From positions 3,658,001 to 3,722,000 of the forward strand of contig NZ_LT629766.1 of assembly GCF_900105315.1 (NCBI RefSeq): a stretch of 64,000 bases of DNA, read 5' to 3'. Every line of letters starts with the position of its first letter. The first letter of the stretch is position 1. A program made the translations under genes and the position numbers. This DNA comes from Brevibacterium siliguriense (GTDB lineage: Bacteria; Actinomycetota; Actinomycetes; Actinomycetales; Brevibacteriaceae). The notes below the pieces were generated by a model that saw nothing but the letters and a program-made list of their open reading frames with translations, was not told the DNA's origin and searched no databases. Shown in pieces: positions 1,424-59,556 of this stretch.

Positions 1424-3798
1424 GACGGAACTCGTTGTCCTTCCTTCGCCGAGGCGGCCGCCCCCGAGTCCTGCCCGCGGGCTTCTTCGATCGCCCAGAA
1501 CACGGCTTCCGGTGTCGCCGGGGAGGCGAGGTCGACGCTGTGGCCGGGACGTGCGAAGGCGCCTACGGCCTCGCGCAGGGCTTCGCGGACGGAGAAGGCG
1601 AGCATGAGCGGGGGTTCGCCCACGGCCTTCGACCCGTACACGGCTCCCTCTTCGTGTGCCTTCTCCAGCAGGGCGATGTTGAAGACCTCGGGGACTTCGG
1701 AGAAGCTTGGGATCTTGTACGTGCTCGCCGCCTGGGTGGCCAGCCGGCCACGGCTCGGCTTGTCCGATTCGTCCCAGCGCAGATCCTCCAGGGTCAGCCA
1801 GCCGGCGCCCTGGATGAAGCCGCCTTCGATCTGTCCGATGTCGATCAGCGGAGACAGGGAGTCTCCGACATCGTGGACGATGTCGACGCGGCGCAGAGTG
1901 TAGGAGCCGTCGAAGCGGTTGACTTCGACCTCGGAGACCGCAGCGCCGTAGGCGAAGTACTTGAACGGCTCGCCGCGCATCTGCGAGAGGTTCCAGTGCA
2001 GTCCTTCAGTCCTGTAGAAGCCGGAGGCCGAGAGCTGGATGCGCTGGAAGTACGCGGTGTTGATGAGCTCTTCCCAGGTCACCGTCTTCGTCGAGGACAA
2101 TGCGGAGACGATGCCCCGTGAGATCTCGACTTCATGGGCCGGTGCCCCGAGGATGCCGGCGGCGACCTGCCGCAGCCGGTCGAGGATCTGGTCGCAGGCG
2201 TTCTTCACCGCTCCGCCGTTGAGGTCGGAGCCGGAGCTCGCCGCCGTTGCCGAGGTGTTGGGCACCTTGTCCGTGCGGGTCGGCGCCAAGCGCACCGTCG
2301 ACAGGGGCACGCCGAGGGTGGTGGCCGCGACCTGCAGCATCTTCTGATGCAGCCCCTGCCCCATTTCGGTGCCGCCGTGGGTGACGAGGACGGAACCATC
2401 CTTGTATACGAGCACGAGCGCCCCGCCCTGGTTGAAGGCGGTGAGATTGAACGAGATCCCGAACTTCACCGGGGTGATCGCCAGACCGCGCTTGATGTGC
2501 TCGTGGCTCACGTTGAACGCCTCGATCTCGGCCTCGCGGGCTTCGAGATCGGATTGGGCAATGAGCTGGTTCCAGCACGCCCCGATCCGTTCGGGATGAC
2601 GCACCGGCTGGTAGTAGGGCGTGTCCTGACCTTTGGCGTAGAAGTTCCGGCGGCGCAGCTCACGGGCGCTGAGCCCCAGCTTGGGGGCGACGCGTCCGAT
2701 GATGTCCTCCATGACGAGCATGCCTTGCGGGCCGCCGAATCCGCGGAAGGCCGTCTGCGAGGTCTTGTTGCATTTGGCGATGTGGCCGGTAACCCGGATG
2801 TTCGGCACCCAGTAGGAGTTGTCGATATGGCACATGGCCCGGGTGAGCACGGGTTCGGACAGGTCGAGGCTCCACCCGCCGTCGGCGGTCAGCGTCGCAT
2901 CGAGGGCGAGGATCCGCCCCTCCTCGGTGAATCCGATCTTCCACGTCGAGTGGAAGCCGTGCCGTTTGCCGGTCATGGTGATATCGCGAGTGCGGTCGAG
3001 TCGCAGTCGCACCGGTCGTCCCGTCAGCCTCGCACCGAGCGCTGCCAGGGCCGCATAGCCGTGGGGCTGCATCTCCTTGCCGCCGAAGCCTCCGCCCATG
3101 CGCAGGCACTGCACGGTCACCTCGTGGGCGGGAACGCCGAGGACGTGGGAGACGATGTCCTGAGTCTCGGTGGGGTGCTGGGTCGATGACTGGATGAAGA
3201 CCTGTTCGTTCTCATCCACATGGGCCAGACAGGCCTGCGTCTCGAGGTAGAAGTGCTCCTGGCCGGCGAACTCGAATTCGCCCTCGAAGACATGAGCGGC
3301 ATCGGCGAACGCGGAGTCGACTTCGCCCTTGTCGATCGTCAGGGGCTGGCCGTGGTAGCTGTCGGCGGCGATCGCATCACGTACGGTCACCAGCGACGGC
3401 AGTTCCTCGATCTCGGCGGTCACGGCCGCCGCCCCTTCCTTCGCCGCTTCGAGATCCTCGGCGAGAACCCAGGCCAGTGGCTGGCCGAAGAACATGATCT
3501 CATCGACCGGCAGCATCGGCTCATCGTGCTTGACGCCCTGGTCGTTGACGCCGGGGATGTCTGCGGCGGTGATGACCTTGACGACTCCGGGCACCGCATA
3601 GGCGGGTGTGACGTCGATGGCGCCGAGGCGGCCGTGCGCGGTCGTCGACTGCACGGGGAAGGCGTGGAGGACGCCGGTGAGTCGGCCGACGAGGTCATCG
3701 GTGTAGAGCGCGGTTCCGGTGACGTGGCCGAAGGCGCTTTCGTGGTGGTGGCGTTCGCCGACGACCGGGTCGGCGGGGCGCTGGGAGAGCTGGCTCAT
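1420..3798 (-). CDS. xdhB: Xanthine dehydrogenase, molybdopterin-binding subunit
   Basis: 792 residues, the usual length for the large subunit of two-subunit bacterial xanthine dehydrogenases, which oxidise hypoxanthine and xanthine to urate. The start is the ATG at 3798, which overlaps the xdhA stop by one base (TGATG). A longer in-frame reading exists but would run back into xdhA. Visible motifs: GHVTGTALYTDD near the N-terminus, QEHFYLETQA, the glycine-rich MGGGFGGKE that binds the cofactor, FRGFGGPQGM, GGTEMGQGLHQK, and near the C-terminus SKAVGEPPLML with the glutamate that acts as the catalytic base in this family. All key motifs look intact. Confidence 0.95.
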   Translation of the reverse strand: MSQLSQRPADPVVGERHHHESAFGHVTGTALYTDDLVGRLTGVLHAFPVQSTTAHGRLGAIDVTPAYAVPGVVKVITAADIPGVNDQGVKHDEPMLPVDEIMFFGQPLAWVLAEDLEAAKEGAAAVTAEIEELPSLVTVRDAIAADSYHGQPLTIDKGEVDSAFADAAHVFEGEFEFAGQEHFYLETQACLAHVDENEQVFIQSSTQHPTETQDIVSHVLGVPAHEVTVQCLRMGGGFGGKEMQPHGYAALAALGARLTGRPVRLRLDRTRDITMTGKRHGFHSTWKIGFTEEGRILALDATLTADGGWSLDLSEPVLTRAMCHIDNSYWVPNIRVTGHIAKCNKTSQTAFRGFGGPQGMLVMEDIIGRVAPKLGLSARELRRRNFYAKGQDTPYYQPVRHPERIGACWNQLIAQSDLEAREAEIEAFNVSHEHIKRGLAITPVKFGISFNLTAFNQGGALVLVYKDGSVLVTHGGTEMGQGLHQKMLQVAATTLGVPLSTVRLAPTRTDKVPNTSATAASSGSDLNGGAVKNACDQILDRLRQVAAGILGAPAHEVEISRGIVSALSSTKTVTWEELINTAYFQRIQLSASGFYRTEGLHWNLSQMRGEPFKYFAYGAAVSEVEVNRFDGSYTLRRVDIVHDVGDSLSPLIDIGQIEGGFIQGAGWLTLEDLRWDESDKPSRGRLATQAASTYKIPSFSEVPEVFNIALLEKAHEEGAVYGSKAVGEPPLMLAFSVREALREAVGAFARPGHSVDLASPATPEAVFWAIEEARGQDSGAAASAKEGQRVPS

Positions 3799-5255
3799 CA
3801 CTGGACCTCCTTGCTGGTCACGGCCGGGTGGCCGAGCTGCTCGGCGTAGAAGCGCTCGAGGGAGGACCGCAGCATCGCGGTCCGGTATTTCGCACTCGCC
3901 CGATGGTCGTCCATCGGGGTGCCTTCGGCGGCGAGCGTCTCCGCTGCCGCGTGCACGGTCTCCAGGTTCCACGGTCGGCCTTCGATCAGGGCCTCGGTTG
4001 CGGTGGCGCGCAGCGGTGTGGCGGCGACTCCGCCGAGGCCGATCCGGGCCTTGGCGATCAGTCCGTCGCGGACGTCGACGGCGTAGCCGATCGCCACCGA
4101 TGAGATGTCGTCGAAGCGGCGTTTGGCGATCTTCTGGAACGACGTCAGCGGCGAAAGCGGCAGCGGGATGCGGATGGCGGTGATGAGCTCATCAGGCTCA
4201 CGCACCGTCTGCCGGTACCCGGTGAAGTAGTCAGCGAGCGCCACGGTCCTGGACCCGCGCACGGAGGTGAGCACGAGGTCGGCCTCGAGGGCCAGCAGGG
4301 CCGGTGGGGTGTCGCCGATGGGCGAACCGGTACCGAGGTTGCCGCCGATCGTCGCCCCGTTGCGGATGAGACGGGAGGCGAACTGCGGGAACAGCTTGCC
4401 CAGCAGCGGAATGCTGCCGGAGAGTTCGCGTTCGAGCTCGGACAGGGTGTGGGAGGCGCCGAGCTCGACGGCGTCTGCGGTGCGGCGGATTCCGCGCATC
4501 TCCTCGAGCCGGTCGACGGCGAGGAGGTTCTTTGCGCGTGCTCCCTTGATGTTGACCTCGACGCCCCAGTCGGTGGCCCCGGCCACGACGGTGGCCTCGG
4601 GGTCTTGGCTGAGGATGGAGGTCGCCTCGGCGAGGGTGGCGGGGCGACGGTAGCGTCCGATCTGCCCCGTGGCGGTGTCGGCACGCTGATAGTCGGTGGC
4701 GACAGCGGCCGGGGCCGGGCGGTCACGGCGGGCGGCCAACGCATCGTCGGCGGCCGGCTGTCCGAGCGCATCGGCGGCGTCGCGGATGGGGCGGTAGCCG
4801 GTGCAGCGGCAGAGGTTTCCCGACAGGGAGTGGAGGTCGAAGCCGTCCTCACCGCGATCGGGTCGGTAGTATTCGGCGGCCATCGAGGAGATGAAGCCAG
4901 GGGTGCAGTACCCGCATTGGGATCCGCCGCGCACGGCCATCTCTTCCTGGACGGGGTGGACGGAGTCTCCATCGGCCAGACCTTCGGAGGTCACGACCTC
5001 TCCTCCGTCGAGGGCTGCCGCCGGCAGCAGACAGGAGTTGACCGAGGTCCAGCGGGTGCCACCGGATTCGTCGGGGCGGGCGACCATGATCGCGCAGGCT
5101 CCGCATTCGCCTTCGGCGCAGCCTTCCTTCGCTCCGGTCAGACCCTGACCGCGCAGGAAGTCCAGCGCATTCGTATGGGGTGGGCCGTCGAACTCGCGGA
5201 CGGTCCCGTTGATTGTCACTTCGGCAGTTGAATGATCCGTTGTCGCTGCGGACAT
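3798..5255 (-). CDS. xdhA: Xanthine dehydrogenase, [2Fe-2S]/FAD subunit
   Basis: 485 residues. The electron-transfer subunit passes electrons from the molybdenum centre through two 2Fe-2S clusters and FAD to NAD. The N-terminal ferredoxin domain has CAEGECGAC plus a later cysteine. The second cluster domain has CGYCTPGF and NLCRCTGYRP. After a linker of about 40 residues rich in alanine, the FAD domain shows VVAGATDWGVE and IRNGATIGGNLGTGSPIGD, the usual FAD contacts. An ATG start at 5255 is preceded by GGGAGG at a slightly long spacing. First gene of the xdhABC-guaD operon. Confidence 0.95.
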   Translation of the reverse strand: MSAATTDHSTAEVTINGTVREFDGPPHTNALDFLRGQGLTGAKEGCAEGECGACAIMVARPDESGGTRWTSVNSCLLPAAALDGGEVVTSEGLADGDSVHPVQEEMAVRGGSQCGYCTPGFISSMAAEYYRPDRGEDGFDLHSLSGNLCRCTGYRPIRDAADALGQPAADDALAARRDRPAPAAVATDYQRADTATGQIGRYRRPATLAEATSILSQDPEATVVAGATDWGVEVNIKGARAKNLLAVDRLEEMRGIRRTADAVELGASHTLSELERELSGSIPLLGKLFPQFASRLIRNGATIGGNLGTGSPIGDTPPALLALEADLVLTSVRGSRTVALADYFTGYRQTVREPDELITAIRIPLPLSPLTSFQKIAKRRFDDISSVAIGYAVDVRDGLIAKARIGLGGVAATPLRATATEALIEGRPWNLETVHAAAETLAAEGTPMDDHRASAKYRTAMLRSSLERFYAEQLGHPAVTSKEVQ

Positions 5256-5299
5256 CGCACTTCACACCTCCCGCGCCTCTCCACTGAGGCGCACAGTGC

Positions 5300-5445
5300 A
5301 TGGTTGGAACAATGTGCTTCGTTCTTCGAGCCTCTGGTTATCCATGCGAACAGCGCAGAAGAACGCGGGTTGAGGGACTCTGCGTCCCCGCAGGTCAAGC
5401 CCCGTGGGCGATCTGACCCTTTCCCCAAGCTGAGTGTCCAACCAT
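5300..5445. promoter_or_regulatory. xdhA upstream region with a widely spaced 9-bp inverted repeat
   Basis: The 195 bases between the purine permease and xdhA hold the operon promoter, which I cannot place exactly. An inverted pair ATGGTTGGA (5300-5308) and TCCAACCAT (5437-5445) brackets the region. AACAAT lies next to both arms. This could be a two-site operator for a purine-responsive regulator, but a spacing of 128 bases also allows coincidence. Confidence 0.3.
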
Positions 5446-5450
5446 TGTTC

Positions 5451-6917
5451 TCATGCCCCCAAGATAGCTGAAATCGGGCCGCGAACGAAGTACAGGACGA
5501 ATCCGGCCGAGACGACCCACAGCAGCCAGTGGACCTGACGGGCACGGCTGCTCATGGCGTGGATGAGCGCCCAGGAGATGAATCCGACGCCGATTCCGTT
5601 GGCGATCGAGTAAGTCAGCGGCATCGTCACCATGGTGAGGAAGACCGGCAGCGAGGTGCGGAAGTCGGTCATGTCGATCTCACGGATCTGCGTGACCATC
5701 ATGGCACCGACGACGACGAGTGCCGCGGCTCCGGCTTCCATCGGGATGACGGCGATGAGCGGTGAGAAGAACATCGACAGCAGGAACAGCACACCGGTGA
5801 TGCAAGCGGCCAGACCCGTGCGTGCACCTTCGGCGATGCCGGCTGCAGAGTCAACGAAGACCGTGTTCGACGATGCCGAGGCACCGCCGCCGAAGACCGC
5901 GCCGAGACCTTCGACGATGAAGGCTCCGCGGATGCGCGGGAACATTCCGTCCTCGGTCTGCAGCCCGGCGCCGCGGGCCAGTCCGGTCATCGAGCCCATG
6001 GCGTCGAAGAAGTTCGTGAACACGAGGGTGAACACGAGCATCGTGGCTGCGAGGACTCCGATGTGCTGGAAGCCGCCGACGAGGTCGAAGGCGCCGATGA
6101 GACCGAAGTCGGGCATGGCGACGACCTGCTTCGGGAACTCCGGAGCGGAGAGGTTCCAACCCAGCGGGTCCGGATTGACCGGGTCGCCGACGGTGCCGAG
6201 CTTCGCGAAAGCCTGGATGATGATCGCGGCTATCGTGGCCACGATGATGCCGATGAGGATGCCGCCGGGAATCCTGCGCGCAACGAGGATGCCGATGAGG
6301 ACGAGCGCGAAGACGAAGACCAGTGTCGGCAGGGAGCCGATGGATCCGTCCTGACCCAGCTGGACGGGCGGGCCCGCCGGGGTGCGGGTGACGAACCCGG
6401 CGTTGACGAAGCCGATGAAGGCGATGAAGAGTCCGATGCCCACCGTGATCGCGATCTTCAGCGCATGTGGGACGGCGTTGAAGATCGCGGTGCGGATGCC
6501 CGTGGCACCGAGGACGACGATGATGACGCCGTTGATGACCACCAGTCCCATCGCATCGGCCCAGGTGACCTCCTGGACGACGGAGACGGCGAGGAAGCTG
6601 TTCATTCCCAGGCCTGCGGCCAGCCCGAAGGGCAGCCGGGCGATGACGCCGAAGAGAATTGTGATGACGCCGGCGACGAGCCCGGTGACCGCGGTCAGCT
6701 GAGCGAAGTCGAGGCTGTTACCGGCGATGTCCTGGGAGCCGCCGAGGATGAGTGGATTGAGGACGACGATATAGGCCATCGCGACGAAGGCGACGATTCC
6801 TCCGCGGATCTCCTGCTTGATCGACGAGCCTCGATGAGTGATTTCGAAGAATCTGTCGAGCAGACCCGATCTCGAAGATGCGGTCTGCACCGCTTGGTCA
6901 TTGTCAGCCATTTTCAT
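5451..6917 (-). CDS. NCS2-family purine permease (AzgA/PbuG type)
   Basis: 488 residues with about twelve to fourteen hydrophobic segments. The start ATG at 6917 follows GAGGTGG by a few bases. Segments typical of the AzgA-like branch (adenine, guanine and hypoxanthine uptake) are FFEITHRGSSIKQEIRGG near the N-terminus, YIVVLNPLIL, the substrate-site stretch GLAAGLGMNSFLA, and VFTNFFDAMGSMTGLARGAG. The exact purine cannot be read from the sequence. The gene precedes xdhABC-guaD on the same strand, so the cluster combines import with oxidation and deamination. A short region of 195 bases separates it from xdhA, which may have its own promoter. Confidence 0.9.
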   Translation of the reverse strand: MKMADNDQAVQTASSRSGLLDRFFEITHRGSSIKQEIRGGIVAFVAMAYIVVLNPLILGGSQDIAGNSLDFAQLTAVTGLVAGVITILFGVIARLPFGLAAGLGMNSFLAVSVVQEVTWADAMGLVVINGVIIVVLGATGIRTAIFNAVPHALKIAITVGIGLFIAFIGFVNAGFVTRTPAGPPVQLGQDGSIGSLPTLVFVFALVLIGILVARRIPGGILIGIIVATIAAIIIQAFAKLGTVGDPVNPDPLGWNLSAPEFPKQVVAMPDFGLIGAFDLVGGFQHIGVLAATMLVFTLVFTNFFDAMGSMTGLARGAGLQTEDGMFPRIRGAFIVEGLGAVFGGGASASSNTVFVDSAAGIAEGARTGLAACITGVLFLLSMFFSPLIAVIPMEAGAAALVVVGAMMVTQIREIDMTDFRTSLPVFLTMVTMPLTYSIANGIGVGFISWALIHAMSSRARQVHWLLWVVSAGFVLYFVRGPISAILGA

Positions 6918-54781: not shown

Positions 54782-55006
54782 TCAGGCCTTCTGGACGGTG
54801 ATGGTCCAGCTGGCGTCGGTGACCCGGTCGAAGTGGGTGACGGGGTAGCCATTCTCGGCGGCCCACTGCGGGATCGCCTCGGTGGCCTGAGTGCAGTCGA
54901 AGTTGATGACGAGTTCGTCACCGGCTTCCAGACCGGTCATCGCATCCTTGGCTTCGACGAGCGGGAAAGGGCAGACCTGACCATCGGTTTCGAGAACTTG
55001 CTTCAT
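54782..55006 (-). CDS. TusA-family sulfurtransferase (YeeD/TsuB-like)
   Basis: 74 residues. TusA proteins carry sulfur as persulfide on one cysteine, here in DGQVCPFPLVEAKDAM. The rest (LVINFDCTQATEAIPQWA, ENGYPV) fits the fold. ATG at 55006 overlaps the transporter stop (ATGA). Co-transcribed with the YeeE-type transporter, it probably receives sulfur from imported thiosulfate. Confidence 0.93.
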   Translation of the reverse strand: MKQVLETDGQVCPFPLVEAKDAMTGLEAGDELVINFDCTQATEAIPQWAAENGYPVTHFDRVTDASWTITVQKA

Positions 55007-56058
55007 ACTGTCCTGCTTTCCGCCGCGGGCGCTGCGGCCTGCGACTTCTTCGGTTTGATGGAGACCTTGGCGGCGATTCCGGCGCCGACGATCATGAAGA
55101 CCATCGACACCCATCCCTGGTATTCGAACTGTGCCGTCGAGACCATCGCGTTGCCGACGGTGCAGCCGCCTGCGATGGCCGCGCCGACGCCCATGCCGAC
55201 TCCGCCGATGATCGACTTGATGATCGTGCCCTTGTCCGGCACGCGGACCCGGAACTCACCGGAGGCCTTGGCAGCGATGAAGGAGCCCACGAGGATGCCG
55301 ATGACGAGCATGACGCCCCAGTCGATGAGCTGAGTGTCACCCGTGGTGAGGTATCCGACGAGGTTCGCCGAGGGAGTTGTGATGCCCAGCCCCGAGTTGC
55401 GGCCCGTGGCGGCAGACAGCGGCCAGGCGATCGTGGCGATGATGCCGATGACCACGGCCGTGGCGAAGGGATTCCAACGCTTCTCGGTCAGCAGGTGCGC
55501 CAGGCCGGTCTTGCGCGGGGGCAGGGTGGCCATCGGGGCCTTGAGCTTGCGTGTGTGGTGGACTGTCAGCCAGATCGCCACCGCAGAGATGACGGCGGCG
55601 AAGACCCATGGGCTCAGTCCCGTGCTCGCCTGCAGGCTGCCGTTGTCCAGGGTGATTCCCCGGATGCCCTCGGTGAAGCCGGCGAGGGGGCCGAGCTTCA
55701 TGACGGCAGAGAAGAGAGCATAGAAGATGAGCGCGAACCAGCTGCCGACGAGACCTTCACCGGCCCGGTAGTAGGTGCCGGTCGCACATCCGCCGGCGTA
55801 CACCATGGCGAAGCCGAAGATCAGTCCGCCGACGATCGACGCCAACCACGGGAACGGTGTCGCCTCGAGGGTGATCACTCCGAAGCTGTTGAGCAGGAAC
55901 AGTCCGATAGAGTGCACAGCGATGAGTACGATGAGAGCGGAGAACCAGCGGGTGTTCCCCGTCAAGGTGAGATCGCGGAAAGCTCCGGTCACGCAGAAGC
56001 GTCCTCGCTGGAAGACGAATCCGAGGACCAGGCCGACGATGAGTCCGGTGATGATCAT
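55003..56058 (-). CDS. tsuA: YeeE/TsuA-type thiosulfate transporter
   Basis: 351 residues, about nine to eleven helices. The three cysteines that relay thiosulfate in TsuA are here Cys22 (GRFCVTGAFRD), Cys91 (GGCATGTYYRAGEG) and Cys299 (GGCTVGNAMVS), each in a half-membrane loop. Provides thiosulfate as a sulfur source for cysteine synthesis. ATG at 56058. A good promoter lies about 50 bases upstream. Confidence 0.92.
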   Translation of the reverse strand: MIITGLIVGLVLGFVFQRGRFCVTGAFRDLTLTGNTRWFSALIVLIAVHSIGLFLLNSFGVITLEATPFPWLASIVGGLIFGFAMVYAGGCATGTYYRAGEGLVGSWFALIFYALFSAVMKLGPLAGFTEGIRGITLDNGSLQASTGLSPWVFAAVISAVAIWLTVHHTRKLKAPMATLPPRKTGLAHLLTEKRWNPFATAVVIGIIATIAWPLSAATGRNSGLGITTPSANLVGYLTTGDTQLIDWGVMLVIGILVGSFIAAKASGEFRVRVPDKGTIIKSIIGGVGMGVGAAIAGGCTVGNAMVSTAQFEYQGWVSMVFMIVGAGIAAKVSIKPKKSQAAAPAAESRTV

Positions 56059-56148: not shown

Positions 56149-56697
56149 TCAGGAGGTGAGGTTGCGGCAGTTGCCGCCGATTCCACCTACGAGTCCCGCG
56201 TTGCTGGCAACGGAGGCCTTATTCGATCTCCAGCCGCTGTCGTGCTCGACGAAGAACGCCAACTCGAGTTCACTCCCGAGCCCAAGCAACCCTCCCAGAA
56301 GATTGGTGGGCACATCAGTCGTATAGGTACCGTCAGCATTGGCGACGGTGTTTCCCTGTACGCTGAACCCGGTTATCGGCGCGAGAATGGACCCCAGCCC
56401 ACTTGTCGATGCTTCAACTACGACGTCACTCAACTGGTACCCCTGCGGCAGCTTCCAGTGGACTCGGACTCGGGCCCCGAGCCCGAGAATCCCCGGTATG
56501 TATTCGCATCGCTTGGTCAATGTGGGGGCAGGCACCTTCCCTGCCGCGAACGAACCAACCGACTGCTTCTCATCGTCCCACCCGGCCAGTGTGCCGTTGA
56601 TCGCGGCTGGGCCGGCGACGAGCGCGAGCAGAGCGACGACCGCCGACAGCAGACGCGCTCGTCTCCACGATCGTCGCGGCGAGGCACCGCCCGTCAT
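56149..56697 (-). CDS. Secreted protein with SipW-type signal peptide
   Basis: 182 residues. The N-terminus has arginines (PRRSWRRARLL), the hydrophobic stretch SAVVALLALVAGPAAINGTL, then AGWDDEKQSVGSFAAG, the form of alternate signal peptides cut by SipW-type signal peptidase: the cleavage site is followed by W-x-D-x-E-x-x-x-G-x-F. The mature part is beta-rich (ARVRVHWKLPQGYQLSDVVV, FFVEHDSGW) with two cysteines. ATG at 56697 overlaps the stop of the peptidase gene (ATGA). Last gene of the operon; function unknown, presumably a wall or fibre component. Confidence 0.8.
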   Translation of the reverse strand: MTGGASPRRSWRRARLLSAVVALLALVAGPAAINGTLAGWDDEKQSVGSFAAGKVPAPTLTKRCEYIPGILGLGARVRVHWKLPQGYQLSDVVVEASTSGLGSILAPITGFSVQGNTVANADGTYTTDVPTNLLGGLLGLGSELELAFFVEHDSGWRSNKASVASNAGLVGGIGGNCRNLTS

Positions 56698-58031
56698 GAC
56701 ACCCTCGCCCTCCGGGTTCGCGAAACGATCGCAGAACCAGTGACGACGAGTATGAATGCTGCGACTAGAAACCACTGCCAGCCGTCGACGCCGGTCCATG
56801 GCAGCTCTCCGGAACCGCCGCCATCGGCAGCGCCTTCGACAGTGCCATCGGAATCAGAGTCAGAATCGCCTGGCACACCCGGATCCCCAGGATCTCCGGG
56901 CCCTGTCGAGACTTTGTCGCCGAAGCCCTCGGCGATGACACGCACCCCAGCGGTGGTACCGGCAACTGCACGAGCATCAGCGTCGACAGCGAGGGTCGCC
57001 GTCACTTCGACCCGGCGCGAGTCGTCGCTGTCCATGTCCAACAGCGTGAGCCCACCGTTGTCCGCGTGCTCCAATTCACTGAGCAGCACTTCCCGCGTCA
57101 GCAGTTCTGACCCTTCTGGGCACGGAACCTCGGCTTCGGTCATCGCGCATTCCCGTACGTCGATCGACAGCGAGTCTGCCAAGGCATCCGCCCCTGCCCC
57201 TGCCCCTGCCCCGATCGAAACCGTCACGGTTCCCGGCTCCGGGGCATCAGCCCAGACGTCAACGGTCCATGTGGCCGAGGCCCCGGGACTGAGGTGCCGC
57301 ATCGTCTCGACATCCCCGAAGCCGCGCATCCTCAGAATGTCGCCCGTCTCTTCGGCTGCCGCTGCAACGGAACGGTCCGCACGAGCGGCAAGCGCATCCT
57401 CGGCGAACGATGTCCCCGGCACCGCCTGGCCTCCGACAGCGACAGCCACCGCCACGGGCAGTGCGATTGCATGCCGCGGTGACCGCGCACGGGGGCGGGC
57501 CGCCTCGGCGAGGCTGTCGTCATCGTCGTCACCACGCCGCGGCCAGAATGCCCACACAACGAGGAGACTCGCCGCGATCGTGATGCTGCCGAGCAGGAAA
57601 GGATTGCGCCACTGCTGAAGGATCGGGGCGACACCCGGGACGGAGAACATCACCTTACGCACAGTCTCGGCGGTATAGGGGTCCGGGTCCTTCTCTTCGT
57701 TCGCGTCGCCCTTCATCTCGAACCTCACGGCACCCGTCGATTCGTCGGCGGAGAGGATCTCGGTGACGCGGTGGGTCACGGGCAGGACCTTCTCGCCGCG
57801 ATCGACGGTGACGATGTCGCCGACCTGCATATCCTCGGCAGGGATCTCACGCACGAGGGAGGCTGACCCTGCCGAAATCGTCGGACTCATCGACCCGGTC
57901 TTGAACATGATGATCGACACGTTGAACACGAAACCGAGGATGACGAGCACGATGCAGACCACACCGAGGACAGCGAGGATGTTGAGCACGGCCCCGCCCA
58001 GCCACGCGCTCACGTTCACTCTGCGCACCAC
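56694..58031 (-). CDS. SipW-type signal peptidase I fused to an LPXTG wall protein
   Basis: 445 residues in one frame. Residues about 1-170 are a signal peptidase of the archaeal/SipW kind: a membrane helix (VLNILAVLGVVCIVLVILGF), catalytic serine in KTGSMSPTISAG, histidine in LPVTHRVTEIL, aspartates in EMKGDANEEKDP, second helix FLLGSITIAASLLVVWAF. Then comes a charged stretch (PRRGDDDDD) and a second signal-like helix AIALPVAVAVAVGGQAVP ending in TSFAED. The following 230 residues form a secreted beta-rich domain, closing with GELPWTG, a hydrophobic helix and SRTRRARVS, a sortase signal. GTG start at 58031 follows GGGGAG. The fusion joins a peptidase to what looks like its own substrate. 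Confidence 0.85.
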   Translation of the reverse strand: MVRRVNVSAWLGGAVLNILAVLGVVCIVLVILGFVFNVSIIMFKTGSMSPTISAGSASLVREIPAEDMQVGDIVTVDRGEKVLPVTHRVTEILSADESTGAVRFEMKGDANEEKDPDPYTAETVRKVMFSVPGVAPILQQWRNPFLLGSITIAASLLVVWAFWPRRGDDDDDSLAEAARPRARSPRHAIALPVAVAVAVGGQAVPGTSFAEDALAARADRSVAAAAEETGDILRMRGFGDVETMRHLSPGASATWTVDVWADAPEPGTVTVSIGAGAGAGADALADSLSIDVRECAMTEAEVPCPEGSELLTREVLLSELEHADNGGLTLLDMDSDDSRRVEVTATLAVDADARAVAGTTAGVRVIAEGFGDKVSTGPGDPGDPGVPGDSDSDSDGTVEGAADGGGSGELPWTGVDGWQWFLVAAFILVVTGSAIVSRTRRARVS

Positions 58032-58033
58032 GG

Positions 58034-58732
58034 TCAGCTCCCCGGAGTGGTGGACTCGGCCGTGAAAGTCCATGTATGTGACGCAGACAGACCCTGCGCA
58101 TCGGACGAGGTGCCGCTCGGCAGGCTCACTTCGAAGCAATAGTCCTGAACTGACGCCGAGGCTGCCTTGAGGGTCTGCGTGGTGCCGGCTGCAGGCGTGG
58201 AGCTCAGCGGGATCGCACCAGCAGCACTGCCGAAGACGAAGCTGCCTGGGCCAGGAAAATTGTCCGAGTTGCAGGCAACGCTCGACGTCGAACGGGCCAC
58301 GGCCCGGTATGTGAGCGCAGAGGCGAAGACATTCGGATCGGAAATGCCCCCAGCGGACACCGTGAGCTTGCCGTCGAGCGACGTATTCGACGTCGTCCGC
58401 ACGGACACCGGTGCGTAGACCTTCTGCCCGGGGTACATGGCGCCCGCGTTGAAAGTCATCTCATTTGTACCAGTCCACTGACCGTCAGTGGACAGTTCGA
58501 TGTTGAACCGCCCTGCTTCGAATGATCCGGAGGCTTCCTCGGAGTCCGTCCACGCAGCGACTGTTGCCGTCGCCCCCACGCCGAAGACCAAGCCGCCCGC
58601 CAGAATCGCCTTGACTCGACGGCCGCGCGCTTTCCGCCGCTGGCACAGCTGCCGTCGACTGACCGGGCGGGCGTCGCCGGACACCCGCCCGGTCGAGAAG
58701 AGACTGCGCAATGGCGAGACGTGGAATGGCAT
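58034..58732 (-). CDS. TasA/CalY-like secreted protein with SipW-type signal peptide
   Basis: 232 residues. The signal region RRVKAILAGGLVFGVGATAT leads to VAAWTDSEEASGSFEAGRFN, the standard SipW-dependent pattern. The mature domain is beta-rich: MTFNAGAMYPGQKVYAPVSV, GKLTVSAGG, FASALTYRAVARSTSSVACN and a pair of cysteines. In Bacillus such proteins (TasA) form biofilm fibres after SipW cleavage; here the same is inferred only by analogy. ATG at 58732 gives an unusually long N-terminus (about 40 residues before the hydrophobic core) and has no ribosome-binding site. It stands two bases before the peptidase gene. Confidence 0.85.
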   Translation of the reverse strand: MPFHVSPLRSLFSTGRVSGDARPVSRRQLCQRRKARGRRVKAILAGGLVFGVGATATVAAWTDSEEASGSFEAGRFNIELSTDGQWTGTNEMTFNAGAMYPGQKVYAPVSVRTTSNTSLDGKLTVSAGGISDPNVFASALTYRAVARSTSSVACNSDNFPGPGSFVFGSAAGAIPLSSTPAAGTTQTLKAASASVQDYCFEVSLPSGTSSDAQGLSASHTWTFTAESTTPGS

Positions 58733-58749: not shown

Positions 58750-59355
58750 TCATTCAGCCGAGGTGGCGGTGAACTGCCACTGGGCGGTGGTGTCCTGCCC
58801 CTGTGTCAGGGTGTCATCGGCAGTGACCTTGAAGCACAATGCAACCGGGGCGCCGGTCGCAGTGCCGGCACCCGCCGTGAGAGCGAAATCGGAGGCTCCG
58901 GCCGTCGAGTCCAGGGCCGTTCCCGCCGGAACGACCGAGGTGCCCGTCGCGGAGGCCGAGCAGTCGCCCGCCGAGGCGACCTGAACGATCTCGTAGGTCA
59001 GCGCCGCAGCATTGTCCCCGCCACCTGCCGCCGAGGTGAGGGCGACGGTTGCGTCGTATGTCGTCGCGCCGTCCAGACGAAGGACGAAGGGCGCCGCAAC
59101 TGTGTCGCCGGGCGATAAGTTGTCCGCACCGTCCAAGTCGAAAGTCAGAGCGGCGGCACCGTCACTGCTCTTGTGATCATCGAAGTCGGTTCCGTTGGTG
59201 CTGCCTTGAACGTTGAACGAACCGGCGCCGAAGACACCTTCAGCCCATTCGTCGTCGGTCCAGGCCGCGAGTGTTACGGCAGCGCCGACGCCGAGGACGA
59301 TGCCACCGGCGAGGATGGCTTTGAATTTGCGCGATCGCGTCTTGGTGGTCGTCAC
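58750..59355 (-). CDS. TasA/CalY-like secreted protein with SipW-type signal peptide
   Basis: 201 residues. Signal region RKFKAILAGGIVLGVGAAV, then LAAWTDDEWAEGVFGAGSFN. Mature domain: ALTFDLDGADNLSPGDTVAA, APFVLRLDGATTYDATVAL and a terminal ALCFKVTADDTLTQGQDTTA. It is related to the next protein (same signal, same order of beta segments, cysteine pair), so the two arose by duplication. GTG at 59355 follows AGGAG. First gene of the operon and divergent from pobA. Confidence 0.86.
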   Translation of the reverse strand: MTTTKTRSRKFKAILAGGIVLGVGAAVTLAAWTDDEWAEGVFGAGSFNVQGSTNGTDFDDHKSSDGAAALTFDLDGADNLSPGDTVAAPFVLRLDGATTYDATVALTSAAGGGDNAAALTYEIVQVASAGDCSASATGTSVVPAGTALDSTAGASDFALTAGAGTATGAPVALCFKVTADDTLTQGQDTTAQWQFTATSAE

Positions 59356-59556
59356 GATGACTCCTCTTCTGCGGCGCACCAGCGCCGAGGTCACAAAGAA
59401 ATGAAGCGGGGAATGACTTCATTGTGACTGCCGCTTTACCTTGAATACGTTTTTCTGCACCACTTCTGTGATCTGTTATTGAAAGGTTATCTGCAGCGCC
59501 GCTCCAACGCCGCCACGCCCGCCGACTGCGATCCATCTCCATCGTCGCGAACCCTT

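Follow-up and report, generated by a model that had tools for sequence, protein, structure and literature searches.

A SipW-type signal peptidase fused to a likely sortase-dependent wall anchor in Brevibacterium siliguriense and other actinobacteria

A fused peptidase and anchor gene in a SipW operon

In a single frame of Brevibacterium siliguriense, a SipW-type signal peptidase is followed by an internal signal peptide, a beta-sandwich anchor domain and a tail with the sorting motif LPWTG, and the same fusion is conserved in dozens of species from several families of actinobacteria. SipW/TasA fibres and sortase anchoring, normally studied apart, are linked here in one polypeptide in many actinobacteria, which points to a TasA-like surface system with a likely wall anchor inside the peptidase gene. 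The window, meaning the whole stretch of 64,000 nucleotides that was analyzed (contig NZ_LT629766.1, positions 3,658,001 to 3,722,000), contains the following features.

56694..58031, minus strand: fused gene, with SipW-type signal peptidase, acidic linker, internal signal peptide, beta-sandwich domain and LPWTG
57540..58031, minus strand: SipW/S26B signal peptidase half, with TM1 (residues ~7-35), catalytic domain and TM2 (~144-163)
57891..57893, minus strand: codon of catalytic Ser47, in a TGSMSP box, invariant in 24/24 relatives
57771..57773, minus strand: codon of catalytic His87, in a VTHR box, invariant in 24/24 relatives
57396..57485, minus strand: internal signal-peptide-like segment, residues ~183-212, RSPRHAIALPVAVAVAVGGQAVPGTSFA...
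56892..57368, minus strand: beta-sandwich anchor domain (CTD), with Cys 295 and Cys 304 invariant in an alignment of 56 sequences
56790..56804, minus strand: LPWTG sorting motif, residues 410-414, ahead of a hydrophobic helix and the basic tail RTRRARVS
58750..59394, minus strand: SipW-dependent substrate 1 (P0004), TIGR04088 at 35.6 bits (cut-off 19)
58034..58732, minus strand: SipW-dependent substrate 2 (P0003), TIGR04088 at 38.7 bits (cut-off 19)
56149..56697, minus strand: downstream gene, with a SipW-dependent-type signal NGTLAGWDDEKQSVGSFAAG

The fused architecture is confirmed in the window sequence. From a GTG at 58031, directly preceded by GGGGAG, the frame is free of stops down to the TGA at 56694 and encodes 445 amino acids, in which TM2 is followed by an acidic linker that varies in length, then by a basic and hydrophobic segment, the domain and the sorting tail. 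In the window gene no in-frame ATG, GTG or TTG lies between TM2 and the internal signal, so its anchor half can be made solely within the fusion. Independent translation of the anchor half was thus rejected for this gene; among the relatives, an internal start with a Shine-Dalgarno-like stretch was found in only 9/76.

Residues 18-129 match the signal peptidase I model TIGR02228 at 62.4 bits (cut-off 51.85). The enzyme is of the S26B type, having a Ser nucleophile in a GSM box and His, not Lys, as the base, and the peptidase profile aligns with human SEC11C/SEC11A over positions 41-122 (E 8e-7), again indicating the Ser/His type. The Bacillus SipW equivalog model NF046067 scored 46.7 bits, far under its 190-bit cut-off. 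In the full-length structure model, helices are placed at residues 7-35 and 144-161. An earlier sequence-only reading had proposed a SipW peptidase, an internal signal and an LPWTG tail in one frame, and this architecture is borne out; its view that the SipW and sortase routes are joined in one polypeptide also holds, with a far wider spread than that reading could know.

The gene order of substrate(s) followed by the SipW-anchor gene recurs across genera. Three neighbors had been read as SipW-dependent, and two of them, P0003 and P0004, stand by TIGR04088; the third, the downstream gene, misses this model and is acceptable with the caveat that its assignment comes from HHalign, which pairs the signal regions of its relatives and of the other substrates at a probability of 97%. 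The ATG of the downstream gene (56697-56695) overlaps the TGA of the fused gene (56696-56694) as ATGA. This ATG at the fused gene's stop is its likely start, and the longest-ORF start at 56799 is probably wrong. All four TIGR04088 proteins of the genome adjoin its two sipW genes. The second sipW cluster (L143, C1:1510500-1517500, locus positions 1940-4476) consists of two TIGR04088 substrates and a SipW that is not fused, followed by a small gene with an ATGA overlap, and no anchor domain was found in it. Just beyond the fused gene's cluster, 54782-55114 encodes a small protein resembling TusA and 55003-56058 a membrane protein resembling YeeE/YedE, both named from sequence reading only.

Distribution of fused and split forms

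The full-length fused frame was found in 24/57 Brevibacterium genomes, and the fused relatives within the genus share 44-81% identity over the alignment. A scan of named actinobacterial genomes, Brevibacterium included, yielded 80 loci, 64 of them fused; the scan used a profile built from fused proteins, and 64/80 is not a frequency. The fused form occurs, among others, in Brevibacterium, Enteractinococcus, Brachybacterium, Leucobacter, Agromyces, Plantibacter, Arthrobacter, Paeniglutamicibacter, Kocuria, Zhihengliuella, Nesterenkonia, Mycetocola, Microbacterium and Micromonospora. Since the anchor domain was present in just 4/396 genomes drawn evenly across the phylum, the system is confined to certain lineages. 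Every row of Brachybacterium, of Enteractinococcus and of Brevibacterium apart from the B. album branch is fused. In B. album and a sister species (loci L117 and L027), SipW is unfused and belongs to a different branch, and the locus lacks the anchor domain, which suggests replacement or loss.

In other genomes the two halves are separate genes. The anchor gene lies directly downstream of sipW in L053, L054, L056, L123, L128, L131, L133 and L140, and about 1.5 kb upstream of it in L052, L059-L061, L160, L165 and L172; the partly redundant set counts 10 split-downstream and 12 split-upstream rows. Split and fused forms are equivalent in content, the separate anchor genes encoding the same domain with an N-terminal signal peptide of their own. 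In all 8 distinct split loci with sipW first, the TGA of sipW and the start of the anchor gene share a 4-nt overlap (ATGA or GTGA), and 77/88 fused genes of a redundant set, the window gene included, themselves end in such an overlap. Because of these 4-nt junctions in split and fused loci alike, the fusion amounts to the loss of one of the overlaps that join the genes of this operon.

On a SipW tree of 97 rows, whose deep branches are weakly supported, at least 10 changes between fused and unfused are required. Once long branches and close copies had been pruned, leaving 85 rows, the minimum was 8 changes, whereas shuffled labels needed at least 18; a single fused clade was rejected (p-AU 0.015). 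The tree thus indicates that the layout changed repeatedly, with counts that do not separate fusion from fission. The split form may have come first.

An apparent triple fusion was seen in one draft genome, that of Zimmermannella faecalis ATCC 13722 (L086, ~4951-6687), where one frame runs through SipW, the anchor domain, an LPATG tail and a SipW-dependent substrate. Another locus, L087, resembles it and has a run of undetermined bases at the junction. The triple fusion could be a frameshift error; the run-on into the substrate, in this one draft genome, would fit a polyprotein logic.

The internal signal and its cleavage site

The basic and hydrophobic internal segment reads RSPRHAIALPVAVAVAVGG..., and in the Brevibacterium alignment its basic start is mostly [ST]P[KR]HA, with one Pro invariant. 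The n-region of the fused proteins is positive, at a median net charge from +2 to +3. Their h-region 11-mer has a hydrophobicity of 2.6, similar to the 2.8 of the N-terminal signals of the separate anchor genes. In Brevibacterium the segment is shorter than a membrane helix, its best 19-mer scoring 1.71 against 2.08 for TM2. No TIGR04088 match was obtained for the fused protein (P0001), and the internal signal is of the ordinary signal-peptide type, not SipW-dependent.

Outside Brevibacterium, a positioned cleavage site is present: 47/51 fused proteins have an AxA within the 22 residues that precede the domain, where shuffling expects 38.9 and reached 47 in 0/500 trials, and the spacing from AxA to domain is narrow (IQR 6.5-10 residues). 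The separate anchor genes have AxA in 15/15, at a similar distance of 5-7 residues from the domain. Judged by this pattern, cleavage of the internal signal looks to be under selection outside Brevibacterium. Within Brevibacterium, AxA occurs in 16/23 fused proteins against 15.4 by shuffle, without enrichment and with scattered spacing; a strict AxA right after the h-region was found in 7/24, where shuffling gives 12.2 on average. A looser small-x-Ala site is present in the same stretch of 23/24 Brevibacterium proteins. The positioned AxA, kept in other genera, has been lost in Brevibacterium at residues ~200-225 (window ~57357-57434). The site in this genus is degenerate, and the sequence gives no support to cleavage in the window species.

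The anchor domain and sorting tail

The AlphaFold model of the full-length protein reached a pLDDT of 64.5 and left the linker unresolved, so the anchor domain was modeled alone, and it is predicted as a beta sandwich (pLDDT 92, pTM 0.87). Its two invariant cysteines fit an exported protein. When the model was compared with the PDB, staphylococcal FnBPA ranked first, the TasA fibre 8aur second (E 1.3e-4, TM 0.59) and archaeal bundling pili scored more weakly than 8aur; the modeled fold would accordingly be close to the TasA fibre, with FnBPA scoring equally. Membership of the TasA family by sequence was rejected: no TasA/camelysin model of Pfam or NCBIfam matches the domain, and a PDB sequence search returned no TasA chain. 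A Pfam match to MgtC_SapB_C fell under the cut-off and was disregarded. HHalign gave weak matches of the domain to the neighboring substrates, with probabilities of 2.7, 35 and 0.1%, the 35% value being a weak profile link to the relatives of P0003.

The sorting motif is LPWTG or LPRTG in 24/24 relatives. The single sortase of the genome, the one PF04203 protein, belongs to class E (254 bits). The tail of the fused protein is LPWTG, whereas the sorting signal reported for class E sortases is LAXTG (PMC5148588).

Export, anchoring and alternative explanations

The explanation toward which we lean, at a little better than even, is that this is a conserved fusion in a TasA/SipW-like operon, in which the anchor half is exported, cut and linked by sortase as a TapA-like fibre base. 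Loss of the 4-nt stop/start junction between sipW and the anchor gene would produce one membrane polyprotein. SipW would process the dedicated substrates encoded alongside, and the internal signal peptide would carry the C-terminal half across the membrane, to be cut most likely by a general signal peptidase and possibly by SipW. The class E sortase would then join this half to the cell wall through LPWTG, and the wall-linked half may form the base or anchor of the SipW-substrate fibre, a sortase-attached counterpart of the TapA of B. subtilis.

That the enzyme frees its own C-terminal domain, as the sequence-only reading had suggested, found no specific support. SipW would here cut its own internal signal peptide, and the presence of enzyme and site in one chain favors it, as does the L086 record with a SipW-dependent substrate also fused behind the sorting tail; however, the internal signal lacks the SipW-dependent type, two general type I signal peptidases are encoded in the genome, and we consider self-release improbable. 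Slightly less improbable is the other suggestion of that reading, a peptidase held at the wall, which gains somewhat in Brevibacterium from the lost cut site. In this genus the internal helix would stay uncleaved as a third membrane segment, and sortase would link the whole protein to the wall, pinning SipW where the fibre is assembled. The absence of a positioned AxA, the shortage of strict AxA after the h-region, the lack of an internal start codon in the window gene and the retention of the fusion in every Brevibacterium copy of this clade all agree with tethering, but the hydrophobic run is short and carries a conserved Pro, the looser small-x-Ala site is retained in nearly all copies, and split genomes have the same domain as a free protein. 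A tethered peptidase is unlikely; equally unlikely is its extension, that sortase fixes a working SipW to the wall in Brevibacterium, a stationary site that would cut fibre subunits and pass them to the fused TapA-like base.

Why the fusion exists is addressed by a neutral account, a serious minority possibility that is compatible with the favored fibre-base explanation: loss of the junction would have no function of its own, the halves would work just as they do when encoded separately, and the layout would drift. In its favor, changes between fused and split recur, and signal, domain and tail are kept in both layouts; on the other side, layout changes are few (8, where shuffled labels need at least 18) and the layout is thus stable over long times, which is weak evidence against drift, and the cut-site loss in Brevibacterium hints at a changed use. 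The sequence-only reading had also held that two separate genes in related genomes, with a stop at the junction, would mean that a local mutation or assembly error had joined them. Relatives outside the genus do have two genes with such a stop, but local error does not follow, since dozens of species of several families keep the fused form and the layout has changed repeatedly. A mutation, frameshift or assembly error in the window genome is refuted by the fused frame in 24 Brevibacterium genomes and many other genera, single-contig assemblies included, and its probability is negligible. The natural fused and split pairs offer a simple experimental choice between a tethered and a released anchor half.

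Comparison with known systems

In the open literature searched on SipW with sortase or with actinobacteria, the fusion is not described; descriptions may exist elsewhere. As in the tapA-sipW-tasA operon of Bacillus subtilis, a dedicated S26B peptidase is encoded beside its exported substrates. In B. subtilis tapA and sipW are separate genes, and TapA is not known to have an LPXTG anchor, whereas the likely anchor of the fused gene forms one chain with SipW and ends in an LPXTG tail. TapA probably attaches TasA to the wall and nucleates its fibres (PMC9674648), and by analogy the anchor half would be a natural candidate for the fibre base. A second role of Bacillus SipW besides cleavage is attributed to Terra et al. 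2012, as cited in PMC9486643. In the sipW-bsaABCRSD operon of Clostridium perfringens, SipW is required for export of the polymer-forming BsaA, and a sortase gene lies nearby, while BsaA polymers form without srtB and BsaA has no LPXTG (PMC7395162). SipW and BsaA are separate genes in C. perfringens (PMC7395162), in contrast to the one gene for peptidase and anchor found here. The fused protein resembles actinobacterial class E sortase substrates in its C-terminal sorting signal, in a genome with a single class E sortase. Ordinary known substrates of this class are single secreted proteins, whereas the sorting tail described here terminates a signal peptidase polyprotein.
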